The position numbers were made by a program, and so were the translations under genes. From contig CP141143.1 in assembly GCA_035235625.1 (NCBI GenBank), forward strand, positions 31,692,592-31,756,591: a stretch of DNA of 64,000 nucleotides, given 5' to 3'. Within the stretch, counting starts at the first letter, position 1. Each line of letters starts with the position of its first letter. The notes below the pieces were generated by a model that was not told where the DNA came from, ran no database searches, and saw nothing but the letters and a program-made list of their open reading frames with translations. Shown here piece after piece: positions 13,503 through 57,512 of this stretch. The DNA is from Saururus chinensis (lineage: Eukaryota; Streptophyta; Magnoliopsida; Piperales; Saururaceae).

Positions 13503-14258
13503 ATGGATGGTGGAGACGGGCGGGAAATGGGTGCCAAACGACAACGGTTAATGGGTCCCAACTCTGCATTTTATGGTGGTCCAATGTCATCTAACTTCAT
13601 GTACAATACTTCTGCCTTCTCGTTTATGGCCCAACTCCCACCTTTCCCAGTTGTTCGTTTGCGTGGACTACCCTTCGATTGCATGGAATCTGATGTTGCT
13701 GACTTCTTCCATGGTCTGGAGATTGTAGATGTCCTCTTTGTCCACAAAAGTGGTCGTTTCAGTGGGGAGGCTTTTTGTGTATTAGGGTATCCTCTTCATG
13801 TTGATTTTGCGCTCCACCGAAACAGGCAAAACATGGGTCGAAGGTATATTGAGGTCTTCCGGAGTAATAGGCAAGAATATTATCTTGCAGTTTCAAAAGA
13901 GGTTTCAGATGTGCGGTTTAGTTCTCCAAAAAGAGGTGCTAATCGAGCAAGGTCTTATGATGATGGAAAGGATGGGGCCATTCACACTGGAGTCTTACGA
14001 CTGAGGGGATTGCCTTTCTCAGTCGGGAAGGATGATATTTTGGATTTCTTTAAAGACTTTGAAATTTCTGAAGATTGTGTTCATATTGTTGTTAATTCAG
14101 AAGGAAGGGCCAGCGGGGAAGGGTTTGTGGAGTTTGCAAATGCAGAGCAGTCAAAGGCTGCAATGGCGAAGGACAGAATGACTCTGGGGAGCCGTTACAT
14201 AGAGCTTTTTCCGTCCTCAGTCGAGGAGCTGGATGATGCAGTTTCAAGAGGACGATGA
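13503..14258 (+). CDS. hnRNP H/F-like RNA-binding protein with two qRRM domains
   Basis: Intact 251-aa single-exon reading frame. Two RRMs of the quasi-RRM (hnRNP F/H, GRSF1) kind are visible, at about residues 50-121 and 164-237. Each opens with the strand motif VVRLRGLPF or VLRLRGLPF, carries SGRFSGEAF or EGRASGEGFVEF in the RNP1 position, and ends with GRRYIEVF or GSRYIELF. The aromatic RNP residues of classical RRMs are largely replaced, as is usual in this family, whose members bind G-rich RNA and act in splicing or RNA processing, normally in the nucleus. A basic linker (about 136-155) joins the domains, and the first 45 residues are low in charge and rich in Ser, Phe, Met and Asn. The length matches small plant members with two qRRMs. 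The ATG lies seven bases after a plausible splice acceptor, so the coding exon probably follows a 5' UTR intron. I see no disruption. The exact target RNA is unknown. Confidence 0.93.
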   Translation: MDGGDGREMGAKRQRLMGPNSAFYGGPMSSNFMYNTSAFSFMAQLPPFPVVRLRGLPFDCMESDVADFFHGLEIVDVLFVHKSGRFSGEAFCVLGYPLHVDFALHRNRQNMGRRYIEVFRSNRQEYYLAVSKEVSDVRFSSPKRGANRARSYDDGKDGAIHTGVLRLRGLPFSVGKDDILDFFKDFEISEDCVHIVVNSEGRASGEGFVEFANAEQSKAAMAKDRMTLGSRYIELFPSSVEELDDAVSRGR

Positions 14259-19354: not shown

Positions 19355-22300
19355 TCAGTGAGGCCCACCATAACAAACTAATAAAATCACAAACTTAAGT
19401 ACCCAAATAACCCCCAAATTTGCTAAATATAATGAAAGTGAAGAGAGGCATGGTTGCTTACAATGACACTTACAAAGAAAAAGAAGAAGTCAGGCAAAGA
19501 AAATAGAGAAGTTATAGAAATTGAGACTCAGGGAGACAATGAGTAAAGAGTCATAGATATTTAGATATTTAATCAATGAGAGAACACTTTAGGGTTTAAA
19601 AAATTGAGAGCCTATCAGGTCATGCAAGAAATCTAGGGGGCCATAATAGTAAAAAAGAAGAGGGGAGATACAATCGGAACTCACCTAAAAAAAGACTGTT
19701 GATTTAAGCAGACGCAACTCCACAACGTTGAACCCAATGTTTGACTAAATCCAGCCAACTAATCTTGAAAGGAGCCTCTAGTAAATACACATATTCAAGC
19801 CAAACTAAGAGAAGGTCAAAGATACACGTTCCATAATCCAATTTGACATATATAAGACTCATGCATCACATAGTTTACGCGATTATAGAAATAAGTTAAA
19901 AATATTATGTTCAAATTGCTCCATTAGTGAGTGATACACTACAAATGATTATATATATATAATACTCAATTCATATTTCGTTATCAAACTCAAAATAGAA
20001 ACACGTATTAATATAAATAATCTTTATCATAATTATGAAAATGACATAATTATTATCTATGAGAATCGATGACTAAGCACTTTCCATAATCAGCAAATGT
20101 AAAGCTAATTTTTTGGACAAAAATTTGGCACAAATCAACCTACCAAATATAATTATATAATTTGCATTCTTATGACCAAAAATAGAATATACTTATAATG
20201 GTCAATTAAGTAGTTTCTCATCCAATTTGGCTACCTACAATCTGTGGTTCAAACCTACATTAAAAGGAATTTATTATTTATAAAAATATTTAATTATTAT
20301 TATTGTGACCGTTAATTTGACATACACATTCACAACTATAATTATGCACACGATTTTAAAAACATCAACTGATTTATTGAATGAAAGATCGTGTTCTTAT
20401 AGGCTTATAGCTTCCAAAAATAATTTTAAAAAATAATTTTTTTAGCAATATCAAAATGATAAGTCCATATTTCCAAAAATCTTATTATTTTTTTCGTCAT
20501 AGGATTACCATCAAACTGTATTTATTCTTTATTTGCCATCCCAATTGAAAGGTCTACAAATTTGCTAGATTCATAACTCTTTGGATGAGCCATAGATTTC
20601 CTAAACAGACATTTATTAACAATGTGGCCAAATAGACAATACATTTAAAAAATAAAAATTATTTTTCAAAATACAATATATAGTCTAATCACAAAGAAAA
20701 CCAGGGACCCAACATTGGGTGTTTGTATGGACCTCAACTATTTTTTTAACCAATATTTTGATATTATTCATCATCCATATTGCAACTCATATAGGCACAA
20801 CATACTATAGTATTAATTATGGAATTGTGACACGTTAAAAATATAGTTGAAAGAGTATTGCTATAGCCGGCATTGACCATGTTCATTCTTATAAATAAGC
20901 CACCTACCAACATGCTGACTATACATGTTCATTATAACTATCATTATACCAAAATTCATAGACATCAATGCACACCATATCCAATCAGCAACGAGCTGTT
21001 GCCATTACTAAAACACAACTTTTAAAGAGAATTGGGGGAAATACAAAAATTCATGCCACAATAAACACAAAATCAATATCAAGTTTTTTTCTTATAGATC
21101 TATGATATATTTATGAAAACATCAATAGAATTACATCATATATGTAACACGAGAATAGATTGTCACTCAATATATTAGCCACAGGCCCCAAAAAATCAAT
21201 TCTACCTTAAATTCAGTCCAAGGGTCATCTCTTTCAGCGTTATGGAGTTAAAAATAATCAATTTGCCTTGTGGAGCAACATTTTGCAACCATGAATAATA
21301 GAAAAGATACCTATCAAGCAAAATAGATAGAACATCACCATTAACAGATAAGATGTTCCTGAAAAAAAGTAGAAATGTATCCCATTTATGAAATAGACTA
21401 CAACACGTACATACCTGAATTGCATCTGACCTGCACTGGGTGAAATGCATCAGTGTTGGGACAGACTTGAAAATACATAACAAATATAAAAATAAACAAA
21501 CTCCGTATCTATTTCTTATGGGTATGTTAAGAACAAGGAAATGTGAACTTTCTACGACCAAGCACACTAAAGAACAATTGCTATTCAAGTCTAACTTTTT
21601 AAAAAAATTCTATGATTTTGATAATAACTAATCATCAGCTGAAACACCTTTTCTATATTTTTTTCATAGTAGTCAAGTTTGTTTGATAACTGCCATTTGC
21701 AAATATATGTACTTCATATTCCAACAAAATTGACAGACATATTACCTTGTCACACGTAATAACATTACCTCAAATAGGGGATTCAATATTTAAACAACAA
21801 ATAATTTTTTGAGTTTAAAGAATTGAAACTATGTTGAGTATTGACGTATTCCAAACTTCTCAAAGCAAAAAAATACTCAAGTTGCACAATTACTATTATA
21901 TGGTTAATCTAATGGAGTAATTAAAATTCTATACATTTATGGAAGGTGAAGAAATCTCCCATCATATATTGCATGCAGAGCATCAACAATAGTTTGAGGA
22001 CAAAGTAGAAACTAGTTTTGTAGATAGGCATTTTGGAGACACCTGAAGATACATAGAAGAGAAAAATGAAACGAAACCCATATATATCGCTAATGGATAG
22101 GTTAAGAACAAACAGTAGAACGAGTACTCATGGGGAAGAACTTATTGCGCAACGCATGACTAAACATATTCCAAAATATCACCTCAATAGGTAAAGTGTA
22201 AAATATGAAAAGTGGGTTGATTATAACTCACATGTCTAGCAATAAACACGGATGTGGTACAAATGGACGTGAAATAACAAAACTGAGAGGATGAACAACA

Positions 22301-23157
22301 ACTACATCTTGCATAAGAAAGATCGCAGATGACCCTATCAAATATGAAATTCAAAATTGGTTAATTCAAAGAAATCTCCCAATGCAATATTTGCTAAACA
22401 TATAAACAAAATAAGAATCAAAATCGTGTCTAATTAGTTCACAAAGCCACCAAGAAGCAGTTAAATAATTAATTGGCTACTTAAAAGATAACTAAGAAAA
22501 TGTAATCATACAATTTAAATGTGGGATATAACAACATTCACTGTACATATTACCATTATAAACATTTAAAAAGCCAATAACAAAGGAAAAATATAACCAA
22601 AAACTCCAAACCAAAATAAAGCGCAAAGATGGGGAATGACACCAAATGCATACGGAGCACTAACAGCTTCTCAGCCTACAAAGATCATTTGGGTTTCACA
22701 TGTAAAGAAATTATATCATTCTGTCCTACTGAACAGGGAGGAACTAACATCGGTGCTATAAAAGGAATCATCCACAACCCCATAAACATTATCATCCTCT
22801 CTTCATCCCATTTCATAACTTCCCTAATGTACTTGAACACTGTGTCAATAGTAGCACATTCCCGAGCCTTTGTTTGCTGCACAAATAACTTCCTATCACT
22901 TATTGAAGCATAATGATCTTTGAATTTCACAACTACATAATAATACACCTGATGAGCCAATGACTGATTACTGTGGTGTGGCTTTACTGGGCTAAAATCT
23001 TCAAACCATTTACAAACCGTTAAAGGCTTTAAAGGCATCTTACTTGTTTAGAAGATGAACAAAAGTAACATCCTTGAATAATGGGTGTCTTATAACACTT
23101 TCAAAGAGAGCTCTGCTAATCAGCATCTTGTTTTGCAGGGAACCTGTTCCTTTGGAT
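19355..23157. repeat. Segmental direct duplication, copy A (3.8 kb)
   Basis: From TCAGTGAGGCCCACC onward this segment matches 53706-57512 base for base, with occasional substitutions and small indels; I estimate over 95 percent identity. It contains the last exon of an XLG pseudogene at its right end and otherwise AT-rich DNA that would be the 3' flank of that gene. A frame of about 128 codons on the minus strand (21202-21588) is kept open in both copies but resembles no family. The similarity stops at the foldback at 23158. Confidence 0.92.
22716..23157 (-). pseudogene. XLG: Extra-large G protein (XLG) last-exon pseudogene, copy A
   Basis: Minus-strand reading gives SLQNKMLISRALFESV, then HPLFKD, LLNK, WFEDFSPVKPHHSNQSLAHQ, YYYVVVKFKDHYASISDRKL, ATIDTVFKYIREVMKWDEE and finally DDSFYSTDVSSSLFSRTE before the stop. 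This is the C-terminal G-alpha-like domain of plant XLG proteins (NKxD-type guanine motif, DSFYST tail), non-canonical G-alpha subunits acting with G-beta-gamma at the plasma membrane and nucleus in immunity and development. The NKYD motif is broken by a stop. A frameshift follows the NKxDAF motif, and another lies between KWDEER and the DSFYSTD tail. The exon is cut at its 5' side by a foldback element. Not functional. Confidence 0.85.
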
Positions 23158-23722
23158 GACGCCTATTGACAATTAAGCTTGATCATGTTCCATAGCCTTA
23201 AAATAATTTGGGAGTGTTGTCCACCAGACATTGTTTTTTGTTCATTTAGGCCATACTATGATTATTGAGTGGACCCATTAAGCCAATGTTTTCCTACTAT
23301 GCTTTGCTTTTTAATATTTTCTCCCGCTTTAGCTATTTCATGACAAAACAATTCCAGTATAAAAATTAAAAAAATTAACAACTTTGACAATTTAGTACAT
23401 TGATTTTCACTTGTACAAAACTTTATACTTTAACTCAACTTAGATAGAACTAAGACATTTGGGATTGATCTTGAAAATCAATGTACTAAATTGTCAAAGT
23501 TGTTAATTTTTTAAATTTTTATACTGGAATTGTTTTGTCATGAAATAGCAAAAGTGGGAGAAAATATTAAAAAGCAAAGCATATAGGAAAACATTGGCTT
23601 AATGGGTCCACTCAATAATCATAGTATGGCCTAAATGAACAAAAAACAATGTCTGGTGGACAACACTCCCAAATTATTTTAAGGCTATGGAACATGATCA
23701 AGCTTAATTGTTAATAGGTGTC
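23158..23722. mobile_element. Foldback (long-inverted-repeat) MITE, 565 bp
   Basis: Arms of about 245 bases (23158-23405 and 23475-23722) are near-perfect inverted copies, from GACGCCTATTGACAATTAAG inward to AGTACATTGATTTTCA, around a 70-base loop. No coding sequence. It sits exactly where copy A of the 3.8-kb duplication stops matching copy B. No clear target duplication was seen. Confidence 0.85.
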
Positions 23723-25643: not shown

Positions 25644-25926
25644 CACTACAGTAAAATTAGCTTTCAGCAAAAGTCACCAACCATTGCTGAAAGCCACTTT
25701 GACTGTTGCTAAAGGTATTAGCGACTACTCTCCATCGCTGAAAATAGAGTTGTTGATACCATTAGCAATGGTTGGCGTGATTTTCAGCGATAGTCATGGC
25801 CATCACTGAAAATCCACCACCCATGTCACAAATAACTCTTTAATGACAACATTGGTGGCATTAGCGACAAGTGTAGTCGTCATTTAAACTGTATATTTAG
25901 TGATGGTCAATGTAGACTGTCACTAG
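25644..25926. repeat. CACTA left terminal and subterminal region
   Basis: Begins with CACTACAG, followed by degenerate sub-repeats such as AGCAAAAGTCACC, CCATTGCTGAAAG, AGCGATAGTCATGG and CCATCACTGAAAAT in alternating orientation. These are more decayed than those at the right end. The series resumes at 26880-27010 (AGCGACGGTCATGGCCGTCG), so the inverted-repeat block between was inserted into it. Confidence 0.65.
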
Positions 25927-26872
25927 AACTATATTACCCCACTTTTTCCGATTATGTCTAACCTAAGGGGTTAGGGGTAATTAGATAGTTTTTAGATAAG
26001 TCTTAGAGAGTTTTTGAGGTTGAAACCTTCGTATACGAGTGGAGCTAAAAAAAACAAGCATAGCGAATCAAAGTACACACAAAATAGAGGTTGGAACTAA
26101 AAGTTATGACTTCGGAAGCATGCAATTTTGGCGGGACTCACTTAAAAAGGGCACAATATATTGCTTTAAGTAGGCTAGTATCGAAGGGATCTTCGATATG
26201 AGTTCAATGGTACCAAGAATGCGCAAATCTAAGTTCGGGGTAGAAAGTTACATGCGTTTAAAAATAAATATTTAAAAAAAAATTAAAAGAAAACAGCATG
26301 CAAGCACGACGCATGGTAAAACGCTCGTCGCACAACCACGAAATTGCGAGTGACGCCTCTTAAACTGCAGCGTGCGCCCACGAAACTGCTAGTGATGCCT
26401 CTTAAACTACAGCATGCGCCGTTTCAATGACGTGCTTGCGGTTTCGCGGGTGTGCATTGCGCCACAAAGGCCGCGCGGGCATGTTTGCCATGCAACACGC
26501 ATTTTGCTGCAGATCCTTTTTCTTAAACATTTATCTTTAAATGCACGTAACTTTATACCTTGGACTCGGATTCGCGCGTTCTCAGTACCGTTGGACTCGT
26601 ATCAATAAGCCCTTTGATACTAACCCACTTAAAGTAGTATATTGTACCCTTTCTAAGTGGGTCCCGCCTAAAATTTACACTTCCCGAGGTTATAACTTTC
26701 AGTTCCGACCTCCATTTTGTACGTTTTTTGATTCGCTATGCTCGTTTCTTCGAGCTCTACTCATATATGAATGTTTTAATATCTGAAACTCTCTAAGACT
26801 TATCTAAAAATTCTTTAATTACCCCTAAGCCCTTAGGTTAGACATAATTGAAAAGGCAAGGTATTACAAAAA
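25927..26872. repeat. Long inverted repeat (foldback) built from LTR-U3-like sequence
   Basis: Two arms of about 345 bases (25927-26275 and 26535-26872) are inverted copies at roughly three-quarters identity. They share blocks such as ATTATGTCTAACCTAAGGG, GATAAGTCTTAGAGAGTTT and CATAGCGAATCAAA. The GC-rich centre is also partly palindromic. The flanks TAGAACTAT and AAAAACTAT agree at seven of nine bases, as in Mutator-type insertion. The right arm resembles 9740-10063, the start region of the LTR remnant in the hAT element. The block interrupts the CACTA subterminal repeats. Confidence 0.65.
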
Positions 26873-27306
26873 CTATATATATCAATGACGGTTTAAGCAT
26901 GTCACTGAAAAGAACTTTCAATGACGGCCTAGATGACTATCACTGATGAAGGTAGTTTATTTTTAAAAAAAATACCATACTTACCTTTAGCGACGGTCAT
27001 GGCCGTCGCTGATGGTAATTATTTAAAAAAAACCATAAAAATTCCAAAAATCACACATCATAAACCGAATACAAAAAGCTCAAACATATATAATGTAGCA
27101 TCAAGAAACCAATAACATCCCCTCCAAAGGATTAGATCTAAACACAAACAAAAAAAATCAATAAACCATTCAGCAAATGCTTATTCCAACAAACTGTAAG
27201 TTCTAAAAAAATTGGAAGTCTCAGTACTGATGGAATTCATCACAAATTTACAACGACTACAATCTGACTAATAAAAAGACATCCCATTTATACGAAAAAA
27301 TCAATG

Positions 27307-27328
27307 ACGAGAGAGAGAGAGAGAGAGA
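27307..27328. repeat. (GA)n microsatellite
   Basis: About eleven GA units within the CACTA interior. Confidence 0.9.
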
Positions 27329-27539
27329 GGATCACAACATGCATACATTCACTTCCCGGGAAAGCTTCCTCGGAAAGGATTGGAGTGACCCGGGAAGCCC
27401 ATTTTACCCATAAAATGGTGGTCCATTTCTGCATTTTGTGAATCAATGATCAGAGACACTGCTTTGGCAAGCACCATGAAAACTCAAGCTTGCACTTAGT
27501 AAATTGTGAAAGGACAGCACAAAGACAAGGGAACATATG

Positions 27540-27770
27540 AGAAAAACAAACAACAATGTCACAACATCGGGCTTTTCTTTCAGATTATCAAGAATCTCCA
27601 CTAGTTGCGTCTGAGTTTTGCAGTACAAAGACATCTGATAAAGTTTATCAGAAGCCAAATCATGTGTATTCTCAGTAATGTCAGAAAATGATGTTATTTC
27701 AACTTTATCATATGTGTTTGTACGCATACGTCCTTGTGCTCCTTGATTCCTACATTCAAAAAAAGCTGAG
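27540..27770 (-). pseudogene. Unidentified exon-like fragment inside the CACTA element
   Basis: After an acceptor-like TTTGAATGTAG on the minus strand, the frame runs NQGAQGRMRTNTYDKVE, then ITSFSDITENTHDLASDK and LYQMSLYCKTQTQLVEIL, DNLKEKPDVV. It is hydrophilic, free of stops for about 75 codons and amphipathic near its end, and then runs into a hydrophobic stretch that looks like intron sequence. I do not recognise the protein. Its position beside other captured fragments in the same orientation suggests a further captured exon. Confidence 0.35.
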
Positions 27771-27969
27771 GATTAATGACAATCTTAGCTCCATAGTATG
27801 CCTTCATAGGAAAATGAAACAACAATGTGAATTGTGGTAAGACAAACAGAAGAACATGAAATTGCCAATTAATAGGATAAGCATAGGGAAATGAAAGCAG
27901 AAGCATCTCTAAATTCCCTCTTCTCCCTTTTTTCTTTTTCCTCTTGCCTAAACCATGATTCTTTCTACT

Positions 27970-28190
27970 TTACTTTCATATGAAAAGAAGATTACTTGAA
28001 GCAGTAACCTCTAGCTTCATAGGAAATTTAAGATGACCATCACTTTTCTTTTTATTCACAGCAGCATCAGCAACTTCTTTAACAACAGAGGTATCTTCTT
28101 CAGCAATATTCTCTTATGAGGATTTGACATGCTTTTTTTCTACTATATTAGCAACAGAGGTATCTTCTTCAGCAATATTGCTAAATACTT
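27970..28190 (-). pseudogene. Unidentified coding-like fragment inside the CACTA element
   Basis: The minus strand reads ENIAEEDTSV then VKEVADAAVNKKKSDGHL and KFPMKLEVTASSN. A 27-base piece encoding NIAEEDTSV is duplicated in the same frame about 70 bases apart, with one stop between the copies. The composition (acidic and lysine-rich, few stops) is protein-like. I do not recognise the family. It may continue from the VPS33-like fragment or come from another captured gene. Confidence 0.35.
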
Positions 28191-28199
28191 GATATAATT

Positions 28200-28311
28200 G
28201 AATTGTTTTTTAGGCAGCCCAGCATGTGTGAAAGACAACAAAACAAGTAAACGTAGGACTGCTCCAATAGGTTCCTGCTTATGAATCATTTCTTCAATGT
28301 AATCAAAACAT
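28200..28311 (-). pseudogene. VPS33: VPS33-like (HOPS/CORVET Sec1-Munc18 subunit) exon fragment
   Basis: On the minus strand, after an acceptor-like CACAG, the frame reads CFDYIEEMIHKQEPIGAV then LRLLVLLSFTHAGLPKKQF. This resembles the C-terminal region of plant VPS33, where a DYIE-x-I-x-KQE segment precedes LRLLVLFS and a GLPKK motif. VPS33 is the SNARE-binding subunit of the vacuolar tethering complexes. Only about 37 codons are present before the match fades, so this is a fragment inside the CACTA element and not a gene. The assignment is from remembered family motifs and is moderately sure. Confidence 0.5.
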
Positions 28312-30296
28312 CTGTGATAGAAAATTGTATGGTAAACTTAAGGTAAAGGGCATTCAGTGTTAGAAGTGGGCTTACAATAAATGGGTTAAGCCCATATCGT
28401 TTAATAGGCATGATAATATTTATGTGAGTCAATCCCATATTACTCAAGTGGGTCAAACCCATATGTTAGAAGAGCCGAAGCCCACTTTGTGTTGAATGAG
28501 AATCACACATGTAAATTTGTTGAAGAAGTGAATAGGTAAAAGGAGATGATGTTGGTATATAAGGCATTAGTTTGACCTTTCAAGTTATGCCCTTGGGCCA
28601 ACCCACCTTTGTGGGGGAGAGAGATGTTGGACTAAAGTACCTAGGTGGGCTAACCCACGCGCGCCTCCGCGGCCGTCCGTCCAGCCGGTTCGGTTCGGTT
28701 CGCACGTGCGGCCGAACGGGTTAGGTTGGGTCAACAAGATAGTTTTCTATTAACCAAATTGGGCTCGATTTGTTTCCACTAAAGAATATGTCCGTTAACG
28801 GATGGACGCATCCGTTTGAACGGGAAAATGTGTCTTAAACGGGATTTCCTATAAAATCATTGAAAATAATTTCTGCACTAATCCAATTTGGGATTTCCAT
28901 CCGTTTCCATTTCTGTGAGAGCATACAAACTTTGGTTCACTGCATGTACTGTGTTGGAGGTGCTCCTATAATACATGGTTGATCATCTTATCCTAAGAGG
29001 CAGACGCCGAAGAGTCCTAAGCACCGTTAAGGAGGGAGAATTATGTCCTAAGGACAAAGCGACTTGCTTGATTTGATCATAATCTTTTCAGTAAGATTTC
29101 TCATCACCATCTTTGCAAAGGTATGAAAATAACAATCTTAAGACAGTATGTTAGGTCAATGGGCTATAGGAAGAGCTCAAAGTAACTTGTATAATGGTAA
29201 GTCTCGACATATACGTCGGGGGCACAATACCATAAAATAATTACTCTCTAGTGGAATAATTTCTATTGAGTATGTTAGGTCAAAAGAAAATATTGCGGAT
29301 CAGCTTACTAAGGGATTGACCAAAGAACAAGTGAGTAATTCATCGAGGGGAATGGGCTTGAAGCCTATATATTAAGAGTCACCATAATGGCAACCTAACC
29401 TAGTTGACTGGAGATCCTAAGATCCAGGTTCAAAGGGACAACTGAATTGTGGTGGATTTAAGGGGAATCACTATTGAGATAAATTCTCGTCCCCATTCCT
29501 ATGATGAGATAGTGATGCCTACATAATGAATCAGGATAAGTTTTGCTTTTAATGGTTCTTATAGCTTGAATTCATTCGAATGGGGTATTGCAGGATACTC
29601 CTAATGAGAATCACCTATATAAGTGTGAAGGGACCGCTTCTATGAGGATTTTAATGCTAAATCTTCTAGAGCACTCATGAAAACCAAGTTTGTTCAGGGC
29701 CGAAATGAGCACAACGATGAGAAACACAGTGTGTTTGAGAAGTGATTGTGTGAATTTTATTGTCTTTGTTTACACAAACGGCTGAACAATTCAAGACATC
29801 ACGTTCACTGATTAGCCACTAAACCCGATAGTTTTCACAAGGGAAGGTTCAAAGCCAAAAGCTACTTATCCCCCATACATGATCTTTTCAATATTGCTTT
29901 CACGATTTATCTACATTATTTTGCATAGTTATCCAGCTAATTCTCATTTATGTGGGGGATTGTTAGAAGTGGGCTTACAATAAATGGGTTAAGCCCATAT
30001 CATTTAATGAGCATGATAATATTTATGTGGGTCAAGCCCATATTACTCAAGTGGGTCAAGCCCATATGTTAGAAGAGCCCAAACCTACTTTGTGTTAAAT
30101 GAGAATCACACATGTGAATTGGTTGAAGAAGTGAATAGTCTCACATCGCCTAGTAGAAGGAGATGATGTTGGTATATAAGGTATTAGTTTGGCCTTTCAA
30201 GTTAGGCCCTTGGGCCAACCCACTTTTATGGGGGAGAGAGATGTTGGACCAAAGCACCTAGGTGGGCTAACCCACGCGCGCCTCCGTTGTTGTTTG

Positions 30297-31086
30297 CATG
30301 GAAGGCCGTATCGATACGCATAAGAGTATCGATGATCATGGATACGGGTACGCGCCGATGATACGCTTGGTACGCGCCGAAACAGGTATAAACCCTTTTA
30401 TAAATATAAAAAAAATTATAATTAATAATATATCATTATAATACTTCTTTTAGAGCATAATAAAACCATATAATGCCGTATCAACCAATACAGGTATTCT
30501 AAAATTAGTTCATTCATAACTATATATTATTGTGCTCTCCATCCCATATAAATTATTGGACATTCTTTTCAATATTAAGTGCTTTAAAATTAATTAATTT
30601 TAAAAATAAATAATATACTTAATATGAGTTTAAGTTATATGTTTAAATAAATGTATATTTGTGGAGCACTATATGTAAAACAAAAAATTATGTAAATTGT
30701 ATGGACCTACCCGTATTGATCTCATATAACTTTAAAAATAAATTTTTTAATATAACTAAAACTTAAACTTTTAAAGAAGTTGGGTTTGAATTGTGTATTT
30801 ATTTTTAAGAAAAAAATTTGAAAAAAAATTTTTTTTTCAAAAAAAAATTAATTTTTTAATTAAAAAATAATTTTTTAAATAAAAAAATATTTTAAAAAAT
30901 AATATATCGATACGTATCGGCCGTATCGATACGGTACAGCCGATACGGCCGGTACGTATCGATATTTCCTGTGGGGGCGTATCGCCCCCCGTATCGTACC
31001 GGTATCGACCGATAAGGGTACGTATCGGCCGATACGGGTACGTATCGGCCGATACGTACCAATATCGGCCGATACGGCCTTCCATG
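30297..31086. mobile_element. Non-autonomous hAT element (790 bp) nested in a copia 3' LTR
   Basis: The element starts CATGGAAGGCCGTATCGAT and ends GATACGGCCTTCCATG, an inverted terminal repeat. It is flanked by a perfect 8-bp duplication GTTGTTTG (30289-30296 and 31087-31094), diagnostic of hAT-type insertion. The empty site can be compared with the other LTR at about 28670. Close to the right end, 30900-31080 holds a cluster of CGATACGTATCGGCC-like palindromic words. The middle is very AT-rich. No transposase is present. Confidence 0.88.
30900..31080. repeat. Array of palindromic GTATCGGCCGATAC-type words in the hAT right arm
   Basis: At least eight overlapping copies of words built from CGATACG, CGTATCG and GGCCGATACGG stand in 180 bases, many perfectly self-complementary. 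The left arm has only two or three. Such subterminal arrays in hAT elements are transposase-binding sites. The GC content contrasts sharply with the AT-rich DNA on the inner side. Confidence 0.75.
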
Positions 31087-32729
31087 GTTGTTTGTCCAGC
31101 CGGTTCGGTTTGCACGCGTGGCCGGCTAGGTCGGGGCGAGTCGGGTTGGGTCAACAAGATAATATTTTGGGACAAATTTATTTGGTTTGGTTTTCTATTT
31201 AATTAGTTTGGTTTTTTATTAACCAAATTGGGTTCGGTTTGTTTTCACTAAAGAATATCTCCTTTAATAGATGGACGCATCCATTTGAACGAGAAAGGGT
31301 GTCTTAAACGGGATTTTCTATAAAATCATTGAAAATAATTTTTGCACTAATCCAATTTGGGATTTCTGTCAATTTCTATTTTTGTGAGAGCATACAGACT
31401 GTGGTTCGCTGCATGTACTATGTTGGATGTGCTCCTATAGTACGTGGTTGATCATCTTATCATAGGAGGCAGACGCCGAAGAGTCCTAAGCAACGTTAAA
31501 AAGGGCAAATTCTATCTTAAGGACAGAGCGACTTGCTTGATTCGATCATAATCTTTTTGATAAAATTTCTCATCACCATCTTTGCAAAGGTACAAAAATA
31601 ACAATAAGCTCCTCCCAACTGCATGCAGCAAGTCAGATATTGCAAGCATAATTTGCTAGGATGATACACTTGCTGGCTACAAGGGTAACCTTGATTCTCT
31701 TTATGAGACCAGAAGTGTGGGATGCACAGATAGAAAGGCGGGGACACAAACTGAGGCTTTCTAAAAAATGCCATGACCGAGATCTGAATTTTGTGTATAA
31801 ACAATTCAATACTAATCTTCATGGAGCTATGCGGGAAGGAAGAAAACGAATTGAATATGTTATCGTGCAATTTGATTGCTAACAACAAGTATGCTGAAGA
31901 GTAAGAAAAAGCAAAGACTACGCAATGCTTAAGACATTTCCGCACTCAACTGGGCAGAGAAAGAATTTAAGAACTGAAATCATAGTCTTAACAGTCAAAT
32001 TGAGTACATATAAATATTGCAGATATAACAAAATAATAGCCAATATAACCAGCATGGTTCAAACTAAATCATAATCGTCTTCCTTTGTATACTGGCAACT
32101 TTTATTTATTACCACAGGGAAACTGGTAAAGGTTCAATGGTTGATTTTGCCTTTAAATGTCCAAAGCAAAAGGTCTAAGAATTGTGGCGAGCTCATTGAG
32201 CTCCACATGGTTTAGTTACCCTTGATTCAGCCAAGTCAAAACCTTTTTAGCCCGTTTTATTGACAGTGCAAATGATGAATTCTCATAATAGAGGACAGAT
32301 ACATAATCCCTAAGATCCAAGGCATTAGGGAAAAACATAAATTAAACTAACCATCTCTAGGAAGCGTTACTTCCCCACTGCAACACATTGAAATCCTATC
32401 AGATTAAAGAATGAAAATATCAGGCTTGCATTTCATAGCTCTCGCCCTCCACTATAGTGTGCTCAATTTCAAGCTGGCTGTGAAATGATGGTTTTGAGGT
32501 ATAGGTTGACAAATGTTGGGCAAGATTAATATGCCTCTGGAAATAATAGCAGCAATAAATGACAACTTAAAGACCTTAAAAATACTTCAAATTAATCTGG
32601 GATGCAAAATTACATAAGAATCATTCCTCCCCAACATCCCAAAAGAGAAAGAAAAGGGGATACAAACAAATTTAGATGCAGTACAGAACCAACAACATTG
32701 AGGAATAGAGGGGAAATGAAAAACCTTAC

Positions 32730-32987
32730 AGCAAGAAGGGGAAGTAGATTGAGGTGAGCCTGGTTTCCGGTCTTCTCGGCGTGAAGCCTGACAGAGCGCT
32801 TCATCATGGTGTTCTTCCCCATCAGAACCACGGAGTCCCCGCGGAGACCCTTGCGGATATTCTGGAGCTGGTTCGATCCGACGTTGTCGGCGGCGGTGAT
32901 CAGGACCTGGCTGTACTCGTCGAGAAGCTGGCAGAGCTTCTTGTCGTACGCGACCTTCTTGTCGGCCTTGGACGCCTTCACCGCCAT
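32730..32987 (-). pseudogene. RPP0: Captured exon 1 of 60S acidic ribosomal protein P0 (uL10)
   Basis: Codes without a break for 86 residues starting [18 protein letters not shown] and including [16 protein letters not shown] and [18 protein letters not shown], then LLPLLA. This is the N-terminal rRNA-binding part of plant P0, a protein of about 320 residues that forms the ribosomal stalk base. A donor GTAAGG follows at the position of a known P0 intron. The rest of P0 (GNVGLIF onward) was not found downstream on this strand, where the CACTA interior and an LTR remnant lie. Leader-like sequence and about 100 bases of upstream DNA are retained to 33239, next to the CACTA subterminal repeats. 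The open frame suggests recent capture. It could be transcribed, but cannot make whole P0. Confidence 0.85.
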
Positions 32988-33239
32988 TCCTCGGGCTTTC
33001 AATGAAAATAAGGAAAAAAAAACGGAAAAATGACGCAAAAACGAGAGCCAAGACGAGGCAGAGCTTGTCAAGGCGGACAGCGGCAAAAAACACAAAAATC
33101 CAGAGAAGAAAAACTCGGTAGGAGCTTGTACAAAAATTCAGAGAAGCAAGAGAGGGGAAGGGCAGTGGAAATTTGTGGCAGGTGAAAGAGCAGGAGAGGA
33201 AAAGGCGTGGGTTTATGAAATGAGGAGGGGAAACAAATG

Positions 33240-33734
33240 AGGATCATCAGCGACGGCCATAGGATTGGCCGTCGCAGATAATATTCATTAGCGACGGCTA
33301 ATTCTTATGGCCGTCGCCAATAAAATTTCTGCAACTCTTTCGGCCGTCGCATAGTATTAATCAATAGCCAGATGGCCGTCGCAGATAGTCAATAATAGAG
33401 ACATCTCTATGAGCCATCGCTGATGTTTATCATATGCGACGGCTAAGCCAGCCGCAAATGACATTATAATTACTGACAATTTCAGCCGTCACTGTTGATG
33501 TCTAGAACATCAGTGATGGCTATCGTAGCCGTTACAGTTGTTGGAAAAATACTCCTAGTACTCAAGAAAAATTAGAGTATCAACGACGGCATCTGTCAGC
33601 CGACTCAGATGATTGTTAATAGCAACGGCCAACTGTTTTAGCCGTAGACGTACTCTATTACTAATAGTTGTTCAACTAATTAAGAAGCAACCGTCGCTAT
33701 TAATACGTCACCATTGCCTAGTCTTTTTATAGTA
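33240..33734. repeat. CACTA right subterminal array of GCGACGGC motifs
   Basis: About a dozen copies of GCGACGGC, GCCGTCGC and near variants (GCCATCGC, GCCGTCAC, GCAACGGC) occur in 480 bases, alternating in orientation and separated by short AT-rich spacers. Neighbouring inverted copies can pair into hairpins. The pattern matches CACTA subterminal repeats. The array starts directly upstream of the P0 fragment's former promoter region. Confidence 0.75.
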
Positions 33735-35262
33735 TTATATATGATATGTTTACATAAGAGTACTTTAAATGCTTAGAGTTCAAGATTTTCACATGACTTT
33801 AGACTTATAATTAGAAGAATACCTCAACAACTAACTATTATGACTTAAATTTTCAAACCCATGTTTTTTGTAAGATCATGTGTGGTAAATTAAGATGAAT
33901 TTTAAATATAAAATAAATCATCCGGTTAAATATCCAAACCACGTTAAATCAGGTTTACAAATATAAATATCAAAATATATAATATTATTAAACATCTCTA
34001 AAGTCCATAAATAGCAAACTAACCATATGAGTACAAGTGCATTAACCATTTAAAAATAAATAAACTAGGTAAATTTAACTCTTATGTTATTATTATAATT
34101 ATTTATAAAATTATAAAAGTAAGAAATTAGATCCTACTAATATAGAAGAAGATGACATATATAAGTCTTAATTATTATTATATATTAAATAACTAAATAT
34201 AGAGATCTCCACCCCGATTACCTCACTTGGTCATAGTTGTCAACTTCTCTCTCGGTCTCTCTTACTACTTAAACACTCATCCAATTACCCAAGAGAATCT
34301 CTCTGAAGACAATAGTCGTGGCCTCATCTACGAATAAAATGATGATGGACAAATGGGCATAGATGCAAATAAAATTTGTCTACCAGCTATTTGGTCGAGG
34401 GCCAATCATAAATAATAATATTTTATAAAGAATAAATATTTTGGCTATCTGCGCATACTGGGGTAATACTTTCAGGATCAAAATGGTAGATTAGTGTATG
34501 TAAATGTGTTTGAATTTCATGAAAGCATATACTTAAAGGGTTTAAACAAATAAGCTGAAAAAAAGAGAAATAAAGAATTAAAAGTCATGGCAAATGTACC
34601 ACACTTTTTGAAAGCAGACATAAAAAAGGACAAAAGTGATCCTCATTTCACATTAAATTTCAAACAAATGTCATCGCCCTCCCCCGTCTCTCCACTTCCC
34701 ATTGTGTAACAGCCGCAATAGTGGTAGGCTTGGTCCATTTTCGCTTATTTCCGCCACGGCCTAGCTAACTGCAGCTAGCCTAGCCATAGCCGCCAATCGT
34801 GTCTTGGCTACAACCAATTTATTTTTCAAAGCAAAATTCTAAACCTAGTTTGTGATGGGTAAAGCCTACGAATAATATTGTCGACAAACTGATAAATAAA
34901 TAGAGTATTTTAAAAACTTAATTTTAAGAAAAGGGTTTATTAAGGCCGTCAACTTTTTGTCGGGGCTTGTAAAAGAGCAACCATGCTAAAATAAGTTTAA
35001 TTAGTGCGTAGATTCCAAATAGTCTATACTACTTAATTAACATAGCGGGGATTCCACGATGCAAGATCAACAGTCACGGGATGAACAACATGACATATCT
35101 GATCGATGGGATGCAAAATCATATGAAGGCCACAAATGGGTTCATTTCGATCATGCCATCTTGCCAATACCAACCATCACAAGATGAGTAACATGACAAA
35201 ATTTTGAATTGAATTGCAGAGGCTTGTTTGCATGGCCTATGAACAAAGTTGCACCTGTATTG
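33735..35262. other. No gene recognised
   Basis: Very AT-rich DNA between the CACTA right end and the first patatin relic. Confidence 0.45.
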
Positions 35263-53705: not shown

Positions 53706-54292
53706 GCTCAGTGAGGCCCACCATAACAAACTAATAAAATCACAAACCTAAGTACCGAAATAACCCCCAAATTTGCTAAATATAATGAAAGTGAAGAGAG
53801 GCATGGTTGCTTACAATGATACTTACAAAGAAAAAGATGAAGTTTGGCAAAGAAAACATAGAAGTTATAGAAATCGAGACTCAGGGAGACAATGAGTAAA
53901 GAGTCATAGATATTTAATCGATGAGAGAACACTTTAGGGTTTAAAAAATTGAGAGCCTATCAGGTCATGCAGGAAATCTAGGGGGCCATAATGGTAAAAA
54001 AGAAGGGGGGAGATATAATCGGAACTCACCTAAAAAAAGACTGTTGATTTAAGCAAACACAACTCCACAACGTTGAACCCAATGTTTGACTAAATCCAGC
54101 CTACTAATCTTGAAAGGAGCCTCTAGTAAATACACATATTCAAGCCAAACTAAGAGAAGGTTAAAGATGCACGTTCCATAATCTAATTTGACATATATAA
54201 GACTCATGCATCACATAGTTTACGCGATTATAGAAATAAGTTAAAAATATTATGTTCAAATTGCTCCATTAGTGAGTGATACACTACAAATG

Positions 54293-54323
<31 letters not shown>

Positions 54324-57300
54324 TACTCAATTCATATTTCGTTATCAAACTCAAAATAGAAACAAGTATTAATATAAATAATCTTTATTATAATTATGAA
54401 AATGACATAATTATCTATGAGAATCGATGACTAAGCACTTTCCATAATCAGCAAATGTAAAGCTAATTTTTTGGACAAAAATTTGGCACAAATCAACCTA
54501 CCAAATATAATTATATAATTTGCATTCTTATGACCAAAAATAGAATATACTTATAATGGTCAATTAAGTAGTTTCTCATCCAATTTGGCTACCTACAATC
54601 TGTCTATGGTTCAAACCTACATTAAAAGGAATTTATTATTTATAAAAATATTTAATTATAATTATTGTGACCATTAATTTGACATACACATTCACAACTA
54701 TAATTATGCACACGATTTTAAAAACATCAACTGATTTATTGAATGAAAGATCGTGTTCTTATAGGCTTATAGCTTCCAAAAAAATTAAAAAAAAAATAAT
54801 TTTTTTTGGAATATCAAAATGATAAGTCCATATTTCCAGAAACCTTATTATTTTTTTCATCATAGGATTACCATCAAACTGTATTTATTCTTTATTTGCC
54901 ATCCCAATTGAAAGGTCTAAAAATTGGCTAGATTCATAACTCTTTGGATGAGCCATAGATTTCCTAAATAGACATTTATTAACAATGTGGCCAAATAGAC
55001 AATACATTTAAAAAATAAAAATCATTTTTCAAAATACAATATATAGTCTAATTACAAAAAAAACCAGGGACCCAACATTGGGTGTTTGTATGGACCTCAA
55101 CTATTGTTTTAACTAATATTTTGACATTATTCATCATCCATACCGCAACTCATATAGGCGCAACATACTATAGTATTAATTATGGAATTGTAACACGTTA
55201 AAAATATAGTTGAAAGAGTATTGCTATAGCCAGCATTGACCATGTTCATTCTTATAAATAAGCCACCTACCAACATGCTGACTATACATGTTCATTATAA
55301 CCATCATTATACCAAAATTCATAGACATCGATGCACACCATATCCAATCAACAACGAGCTGTTGCCATTACTAAAACACAACTTTTAAAGAGAATTGGGG
55401 GAAATACGAAAATTCATGCTACAATAAACACAAAATCAATATCAAGTTTTTTTCTTATAGATCTATGATATATTTATGAAAACATCAATAGTATTCCATC
55501 ATATATGTAACACGAGAATAGATTGTCACTCAATATATTAGCAACAGGCCCCAAAAAATCAATTCTGCCTTGAATTAAGTCCAAGGGTCATCTCTTTCAG
55601 CGTTACGGAGTTAAAAATAATCAATTTGCCTTGTTGAGCAACATTTTGCAACCATGAATAATAGAAAAGATACCTATCAAGCAAAATAGATAGAACATCA
55701 CCATTAACAGATAAGATGTTCATGAAAAAAAGTAGAAATGTATCCCATTTATGAAATAGACTACAACATGTACATACCTGAATTGCATCCGACCTGCACT
55801 GGGTGAAATGCATCAGTGTTGGGACAGACTTGAAAATACATAACAAATATAAAAATAAACAAACTCTGTATCTATTTCTTATGGGTATGTTAAGAACAAG
55901 GAAATGTAAGCTTTCTACAACCGAGCACACTAAAGAACAATTGCTATTCAAGTCTAACTTTTAAAAAAAATTCTATGATTTTGATAATAACTAATAATCA
56001 GCTGAAACACTTTTTCAATATTTTTTTCATAGTAGTCAAGTTTGTTTGATAAATGCCATTTGCAAATATATGTACTTCATATTCCAACAAAATTGACAGA
56101 CATATTACCTTGTCACACGTAATAACATTACCTCAAATAGGGGATTCAATATTTAAACAACAAATAATTTTTTTAGTTTAATGAATTGAAACTATGTTGA
56201 GTATTGATGTATTCCAAACTTCTCAAAGCAAAAAAATACTCAAGTTGCACAATTACTATTATATGGTTAATCTAATGGAGTAATTAATATTCTATACATT
56301 TAATGAAGGTGAAGAAATCTCCCCTCATATATTGCATGCAGAGCATCAACAATAGGTTGAGGACAAAGTAGAAACTAGTTTTGTAGATAGGCATTTTGGA
56401 GACACTTGAAAAGATACATAGAAGAGAAAAATGAAACGAAGCTCATATATATCACTAATGGATAGGTTAAGAACAAACAACAGAACGAGTACTCATGGGG
56501 AAGAACTAATTGCGCAACGCATGACCAAACATATTCCAAAATATCACCTCAATAGGTAAAGTGTAAAATATGAAAAGTGGGTTGATTATAACTCACATGT
56601 CTAGCAATAAACACGGACGAGGTACAAATGGACGTGAAATAACAAAACTGAGAGGATGAACAACAACTACATCTTGCATAAGAAAGATCGCAAATGGCCC
56701 TATCAAATACGAAATTCAAAATTGGTTAATTTAAAGAAATCTCCCAATGCAATATTTGCTAAATAAGAATCAAAATCGTGTCTAATTAGTTCACAAAGCC
56801 ACCAAGAAGCAATTAAATAATTAATTGGCTACTTAAAAGATAACTAAGAAAATGTAATCATACAATTTAAATGTGGGATACAACAACATTCACTGTATAT
56901 ATTACCATTATAAACATTTAAAAAGCCAATAACAAAGGAAAAATATAACCAAAAACTCCAAACCAAAATTAAGCGCAAAGATGGGGAATGACACCAAATG
57001 CATACGGAGCACTAACAGCTTCTCAGCCTACAAAGATCATATGGGTTTCACATGTAAGGAAATTATATCATTCTGTCCTAATGAACAGGGAGGAACTAAC
57101 ATCGGTGCTATTAAAGGAATCATCCACAACCCATAAACATTGTCATCCTCTCTTCATTCCATTTCATAACTTCCCTAATGTACTTGAACATTGCGTCAAT
57201 AGTAGCACATTCCCGAGCCTTTGTTTGCCGCACAAATAACTTCCTATCACTTATAGAAGCATAATGATCTTTGAATTTCACAACTACATAATAATACACC

Positions 57301-57512
57301 TAATGAGCCAACAACTGATTATTGTGGTGGGGCTTTACTGGGCTAAAATATTTAAACCATTTACAAACAGGTAAAGGCTTCAAAGGCATCATACTTGTTT
57401 AGAAGATGAACAAAAGGAACATCCTTGAATAATGGGTGTCTTACAACACTTTCAAAGAGAGCTCTGCTAATCAACATCTTGTTTTGCAGGGAACCTGTTC
57501 CTTTGGATGACA
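53706..57512. repeat. Segmental direct duplication, copy B (3.8 kb)
   Basis: Same content and orientation as copy A, 34.35 kb further right. It differs by point changes, by a longer TA tract near 54300, and by retaining the XLG exon beyond the point where copy A is cut. The left border is the shared TCAGTGAGGCCCACC. I see no terminal inverted repeats or matching short flanks at the borders, so it does not look like a simple transposon insertion. Confidence 0.92.

Follow-up and report, generated by a model that had tools for sequence, protein, structure and literature searches.

The capture of host gene fragments by DNA transposons is well known, and different mechanisms have been proposed to explain it. 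Tgm-Express1 of soybean is described as a CACTA element with five host gene fragments, which are spliced into chimeric transcripts (PMC1947982). Pack-CACTA elements of maize often carry DNA from several loci, and according to the published account it was the maize Pack-CACTA that held the most loci (PMC8903248). We have analyzed a window of 64,000 nt (C4:31692592-31756591) from the genome of a plant, Saururus chinensis (516 Mb in 11 contigs). Positions 25644-33734 of this window very probably correspond to a non-autonomous CACTA (En/Spm) transposon which holds fragments of host genes, that is, a Pack-CACTA. Two of these genes code for the ribosomal protein P0 and for VPS33.

The element resembles Tgm-Express1, as described, in being a CACTA element with fragments of several unrelated host genes, which include exonic and intronic parts. 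On the other hand, Tgm-Express1 is reported to be located within an expressed gene, in one of its introns, and to produce chimeric transcripts. Another difference from the published description of Tgm-Express1 is that relatives without P0, and a stepwise history, are visible here (PMC1947982). The parent loci are found in the same genome as relatives lacking P0, relatives which have P0 and lack VPS33, and a pair of copies with both fragments, so the order of capture and the junctions can be read. Systems of this kind are already known, this is a useful worked case.

The features of the element are the following (window coordinates, strand, description):

25644-33734, no strand: complete non-autonomous CACTA element, very probably; its end types recur with other flanks, both of them at C6:23999697-24005817
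25644-25934, plus: left terminus, CACTAC and subterminal repeats; CACTACAAAAAA-type ends with different flanks at C1:35.9, C4:38.2 and C3:2.43 Mb
25935-26899, no strand: nested foldback-like insert with 171 bp inverted arms (25945-26115 and 26684-26854), missing from the C3 twin
26900-27335, plus: remaining left subterminal region, partly common to relatives L010, L011, L015 and L018
27361-27553, minus: homeodomain gene fragment, putative intron and later exon, 94% identity to C11:10405599-10405791
27885-28156, minus: exon-like piece with no parent locus identified, multi-copy (at least 10 other loci)
28174-28357, minus: VPS33 fragment, downstream part, exon B, 95.7% identity to C7:40018248-40018431, Sec1 match (E 7e-4)
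28358-31606, plus: long terminal repeat (LTR) retrotransposon within the VPS33 fragment, direct repeats D1-D3 (89-94%), site uninterrupted in the C3 twin
31607-32624, minus: VPS33 fragment, upstream part, exon A, 92% identity to C7:40018433-40019461
32662-33081, minus: P0 fragment with 94 bp 5' of the ATG, exon 1 (32730-32987) and the start of intron 1 (donor GTAAGG), 92% identity to C11:29035530-29035956
33092-33108, plus: 17 bp filler ACAAAAATCCAGAGAAG, 16 of 17 bases identical to element DNA at 33130-33146
33235-33734, plus: right terminus, subterminal repeats and TAGTA; homologous ends at C2:30.54, C2:6.95, C5:46.317, C10:22.25 and C6:24.006 Mb

Ends and span of the element

The left boundary is found at 25644, where TTAT is followed by CACTACAG. 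At the right boundary TAGTA (33730-33734), a degenerate form of TAGTG, is followed by TTAT. These are terminal inverted repeats of the CACTA type, with a degenerate right end. Subterminal repeats (GCGACGGC and GCCGTCGC), another feature of CACTA elements, are found in both orientations close to both ends; repeats D8 and I18 connect the two sides of the element, D4 and D9 are found on its right side. The closest copy, a twin on C3, has the ends CACTACAAAAAAA and TACTACAAAAAAA. A relative on C2 has a right end GCCTAGTTTTTTTTGTAGTG (GTAGTG) with a flank unlike that of the window.

An earlier reading of this stretch, made from the sequence only, had considered that the two ends might come from different elements in other copies. 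The opposite is found on C6, where a left end (L037:698) and a right end (L037:6818) enclose a P0 fragment over 6,121 bp at a different site; the two end types thus belong together. At C4:38.2 Mb, a stretch of 1.4 kb contains both a left end and sequence of the right subterminal region (74%, E 1e-9). Copies with P0 are dispersed, as in other Pack-CACTA elements: on C4 and C3 (a single, duplicated insertion), C2, C6 and C5.

The element spans 8.1 kb, of which about 3.9 kb, around half, are left after subtracting two later insertions. No match to a transposase family was found among the 19 open reading frames (ORFs) of the element that were scanned, picked from a longer list, as expected for a non-autonomous CACTA, since only autonomous members require a transposase (TNP2-type). 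Elsewhere in the genome there are at least 152 matches to Transposase_21, several of them with long open frames, so it is plausible that the transposase is supplied in trans. We have detected no known RNA families or tRNAs in the window.

Captured fragments, their order and their junctions

Host gene fragments within CACTA ends are what defines a Pack-CACTA, and three parent loci are directly observed: P0 (C11:29.04 Mb), VPS33 (C7:40.02 Mb) and a homeodomain gene (C11:10.41 Mb). The sequence-only reading had proposed a CACTA element with several host gene pieces, P0 and VPS33 among them, on the minus strand, and both the ends and the parent loci agree with it for P0, VPS33 and another gene. 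P0 exon 1 matches Ribosomal_L10 (E 5e-12), and the parent locus also has ORFs matching RL10P_insert and Ribosomal_60s, with a SDDDMGFSLFD tail. The two VPS33 parts are adjacent in the parent (C7:40018248-40019461), with 92-96% DNA identity over 1.2 kb. Two minus strand ORFs match the Sec1 family below the Pfam cut-off: 32420-32566 (profile positions 323-355, E 0.005) and 28143-28337 (359-405, E 7e-4). For this reason VPS33 is identified by its parent locus, whose versions of these two ORFs also give weak matches to Sec1. Protein searches are weak by themselves (exon B, PDB E 0.02; exon A, nothing relevant).

Two further exon-like stretches had been pointed out, with the suggestion of a search for their parents. 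The stretch at 27361-27553 can be assigned to the homeodomain gene, its counterpart is the end of, and the sequence just past, an ORF with a PF00046 match (E 3e-15), presumably of the WOX type. The stretch at 27885-28156 gave no parent in that search. Six stretches were picked with the piece 28017-28153: five of them have no P0 or right end match, the one at C5:46.3 Mb does. The C2 counterpart (L029:3285-3698) of window positions 27976-28113 is about 315 bp longer and forms a single 137 amino acid frame; this additional stretch is absent from the window and from L012. The C2 locus (30.54 Mb) also contains a DEAD-box helicase fragment (L029:555-905, PF00270, E 1e-22), about 4 kb from its P0 piece and on the same strand. 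This fragment may be an additional capture; no left end was found for the element at that locus.

The common orientation of the fragments had been considered remarkable. All three fragments with an assigned parent are indeed on the minus strand, an agreement that is not notable, as three genes would show it by chance in one case out of four.

The host fragments were captured stepwise. P0 was acquired first; VPS33 followed in the common ancestor of the window and C3 copies. Among 48 matches to window positions 31610-33734, seven span P0 (two genes and five element loci), and three span the VPS33 part, namely those of the parent, of the window and of C3. As P0 occupies five element loci and VPS33 is restricted to the window and to its C3 twin, P0 came first. 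No VPS33 match is found in the C2 and C6 relatives; C2 has about 1.2 kb of other sequence in that place. Relatives without P0 are also directly observed: L053 (C4:35.858 Mb) and L055 (C4:2.817 Mb) have some C2-type sequence, then the equivalent of window positions 32622-32664, and then the sequence from 33092/33102 onward. The parts which flank P0 in the window abut each other in L053 and are separated by 7 bp in L055.

At the left P0 junction 5 bp (ACAAA) are common to the element and the P0 intron; in a control with 200,000 random junctions, 0.8% reached a microhomology of at least 5 bp. On the right side P0 homology ends at 33081, followed by 10 bp and then by the filler. The doubled filler motif is readable, with small changes, in all five copies with P0 (C4, C3, C2, C5 and C6), while L053 and L055 have it only once. 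At its right end, the VPS33 fragment shares 3 bp (32622-32624) with element sequence. Microhomology, templated filler and a 3 bp overlap are traces expected from repair synthesis with template switching, and we infer that capture took place by such repair inside the element. A break or gap within the element would have been repaired by DNA synthesis which switched to the host gene and then back. The interior of the element acquired its host gene fragments in separate steps. Afterwards, a foldback-like insert and an LTR retrotransposon entered the element, which also shares a segmental duplication with C3.

Several observations weigh against this reconstruction. The exact state before capture is not found in any relative: L053 and L055 contain 106-108 bp for which BLAST gives no counterpart in C2, and the 7 bp of L055 lie between its joined parts. 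A looser alignment of the filler to DNA upstream of P0 is also possible, and one P0 junction is a single event.

Junction microhomology and template switching during repair are also part of the gap-filling and FoSTeST models of animal Pack-TIR elements. These models are described for animals, and their authors consider that an extension to plant Pack-MULEs is worth exploring (PMC8277862).

In Arabidopsis and maize Pack-CACTA, the published account favours tandem insertion and remobilisation (PMC8903248): a new element is formed when two neighbouring elements are excised together with the host DNA that separates them. This is a published model with similar CACTA examples, as far as these reports describe them (PMC8903248; PMC13317346), and the two halves of the element are similar to different sets of relatives (C1, C4:38.2 and C3:2.43 Mb for the left half; C2, C6 and C5 for the right half), as might be the case in a hybrid. 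Nevertheless, P0 lies within sequence which is otherwise joined in L053 and L055, it is bordered by microhomology and templated filler instead of element ends, and both end types already occur together at C6. We consider a tandem insertion unlikely: the P0 junctions favour template switching within the element.

The P0 reading frame and predicted splicing

P0 exon 1 is open in the window, as had been reported, but the open frame is not supported as a sign of use. The frame is also open in C3 and C2 (with one extra codon in C2), and it is broken in C6 and C5, two of the five copies, which have a common 11 bp frameshifting deletion. A comparison of the C4 and C3 copies gives 1 synonymous change in 58.7 sites and 3 nonsynonymous changes in 199.3 sites: there is no sign of constraint, with changes too few to exclude it. 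Between C4 and the C11 parent there are 6 synonymous and 6 nonsynonymous changes (dS 0.11, dN 0.03), a value which includes the parent's own constrained branch. C2 was counted without its extra codon, and the frameshifted C6 and C5:46.3 Mb copies were omitted.

It had also been suggested that the P0 promoter was captured. Homology with the parent stops 94 bp 5' of the ATG at 32987 (97 bp in another alignment), and from about 33092-33109 it is followed by element DNA which is also present in the relatives without P0. A captured P0 promoter is thus not supported.

These data bear on a possible chimeric gene, in which a transcript through P0 exon 1 would be joined in frame, by splicing, to exons A and B of VPS33, giving a fused product. 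The predicted splice is in frame, as the end of P0 exon 1 and the start of VPS33 exon A are both at a codon boundary, and the acceptors retain AG. Chimeric spliced transcripts from a CACTA element are described in soybean (PMC1947982). However, one join out of three would be in frame by chance, the P0 promoter was not captured past 94 bp, the exon A donor is GC in the window, the intron between exons A and B contains the 3.2 kb retrotransposon, the P0 frame is broken in two of the five copies, and the C4 and C3 comparison, with its few changes, shows no constraint. Such a fused product is highly improbable. The C3 copy would be a better candidate, with a GT donor in exon A and no retrotransposon, but it has a Gly-to-Trp change in the P0 part. 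It is very unlikely that either of the two loci transcribes, as a new chimeric gene, the in-frame join of P0 exon 1 and the two VPS33 exons, which a second capture beside the first created. Most likely, the element has no host function now.

Later insertions, flanks and surroundings

Two segments, 28358-31606 and 25935-26899, are later insertions, which the sequence-only reading had missed. We take the retrotransposon to be copia-like from a motif in its internal part, Pfam found nothing for that ORF. Its right LTR contains a further repeat (about 30290-31090). This repeat is rich in GTATCGGCCGATACG palindromes, and an 80% match to it is found at C5:2.37 Mb, with another P0 gene about 4 kb away.

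Neither of the two later insertions is present in the C3 twin (C3:46.943-46.949 Mb, reverse strand). Gapped homology between the window and C3 (46.928-46.949 Mb) extends from about 25543 to at least 42357, with 82-97% identity: 82% at the left border, 86-88% immediately to the right of the element, and 97% further on, at 40-42 kb. The left border of the duplication is only about 100 bp beyond the CACTA left end. As homology continues beyond both ends, the two copies descend from a single insertion. The C3 copy was considered as an independent sister insertion and rejected: the shared flanks make it a segmental duplicate, which cannot give a target duplication. The right flank (33735-35235) matches only C3 over most of its length, in addition to a common repeat. 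This repeat, of about 240 bp (33902-34143), lies immediately right of the element; 1,082 candidates were initially listed for the flank query. Neither an empty site nor a third full-length copy of the right flank was found among the 40 of these 1,082 candidates which were scored.

Some features of the ends do not favour a single complete element. An exact 3 bp target duplication, which the sequence-only reading had proposed to look for in sister copies, was found neither in the window (TAT on the left and TTA on the right, with TTAT abutting both ends) nor in the C6 copy (TGA and TGG), and the closest twin is segmental. The left end of C6 reads CACTAGGTC, with CACTA directly followed by GGTCAATAG, and lacks the A-rich stretch present in other left ends. 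For the C2 and C5 relatives, no left end was found in the stretches examined. An origin of the 25.64 and 33.73 kb ends in two separate elements, with the gene pieces between them by chance, would agree with the missing target duplication and with the P0-bearing C2 locus, where no left end is found in about 5 kb left of P0, but it is already disfavoured, and extremely improbable, given the C6 copy with both ends around P0 and the closely spaced end sequences at C4:38.2 Mb.

The element is flanked by a 3.8 kb direct repeat (19355-23160 and 53708-57511, 34 kb apart, 95.5% identity). The first copy of this repeat contains a weak G-alpha-like ORF (22685-23038, E 0.002, below the cut-off). Another ORF, at 13503-14258, codes for an RRM protein (PF00076, E 5e-15), and is probably an ordinary host gene.

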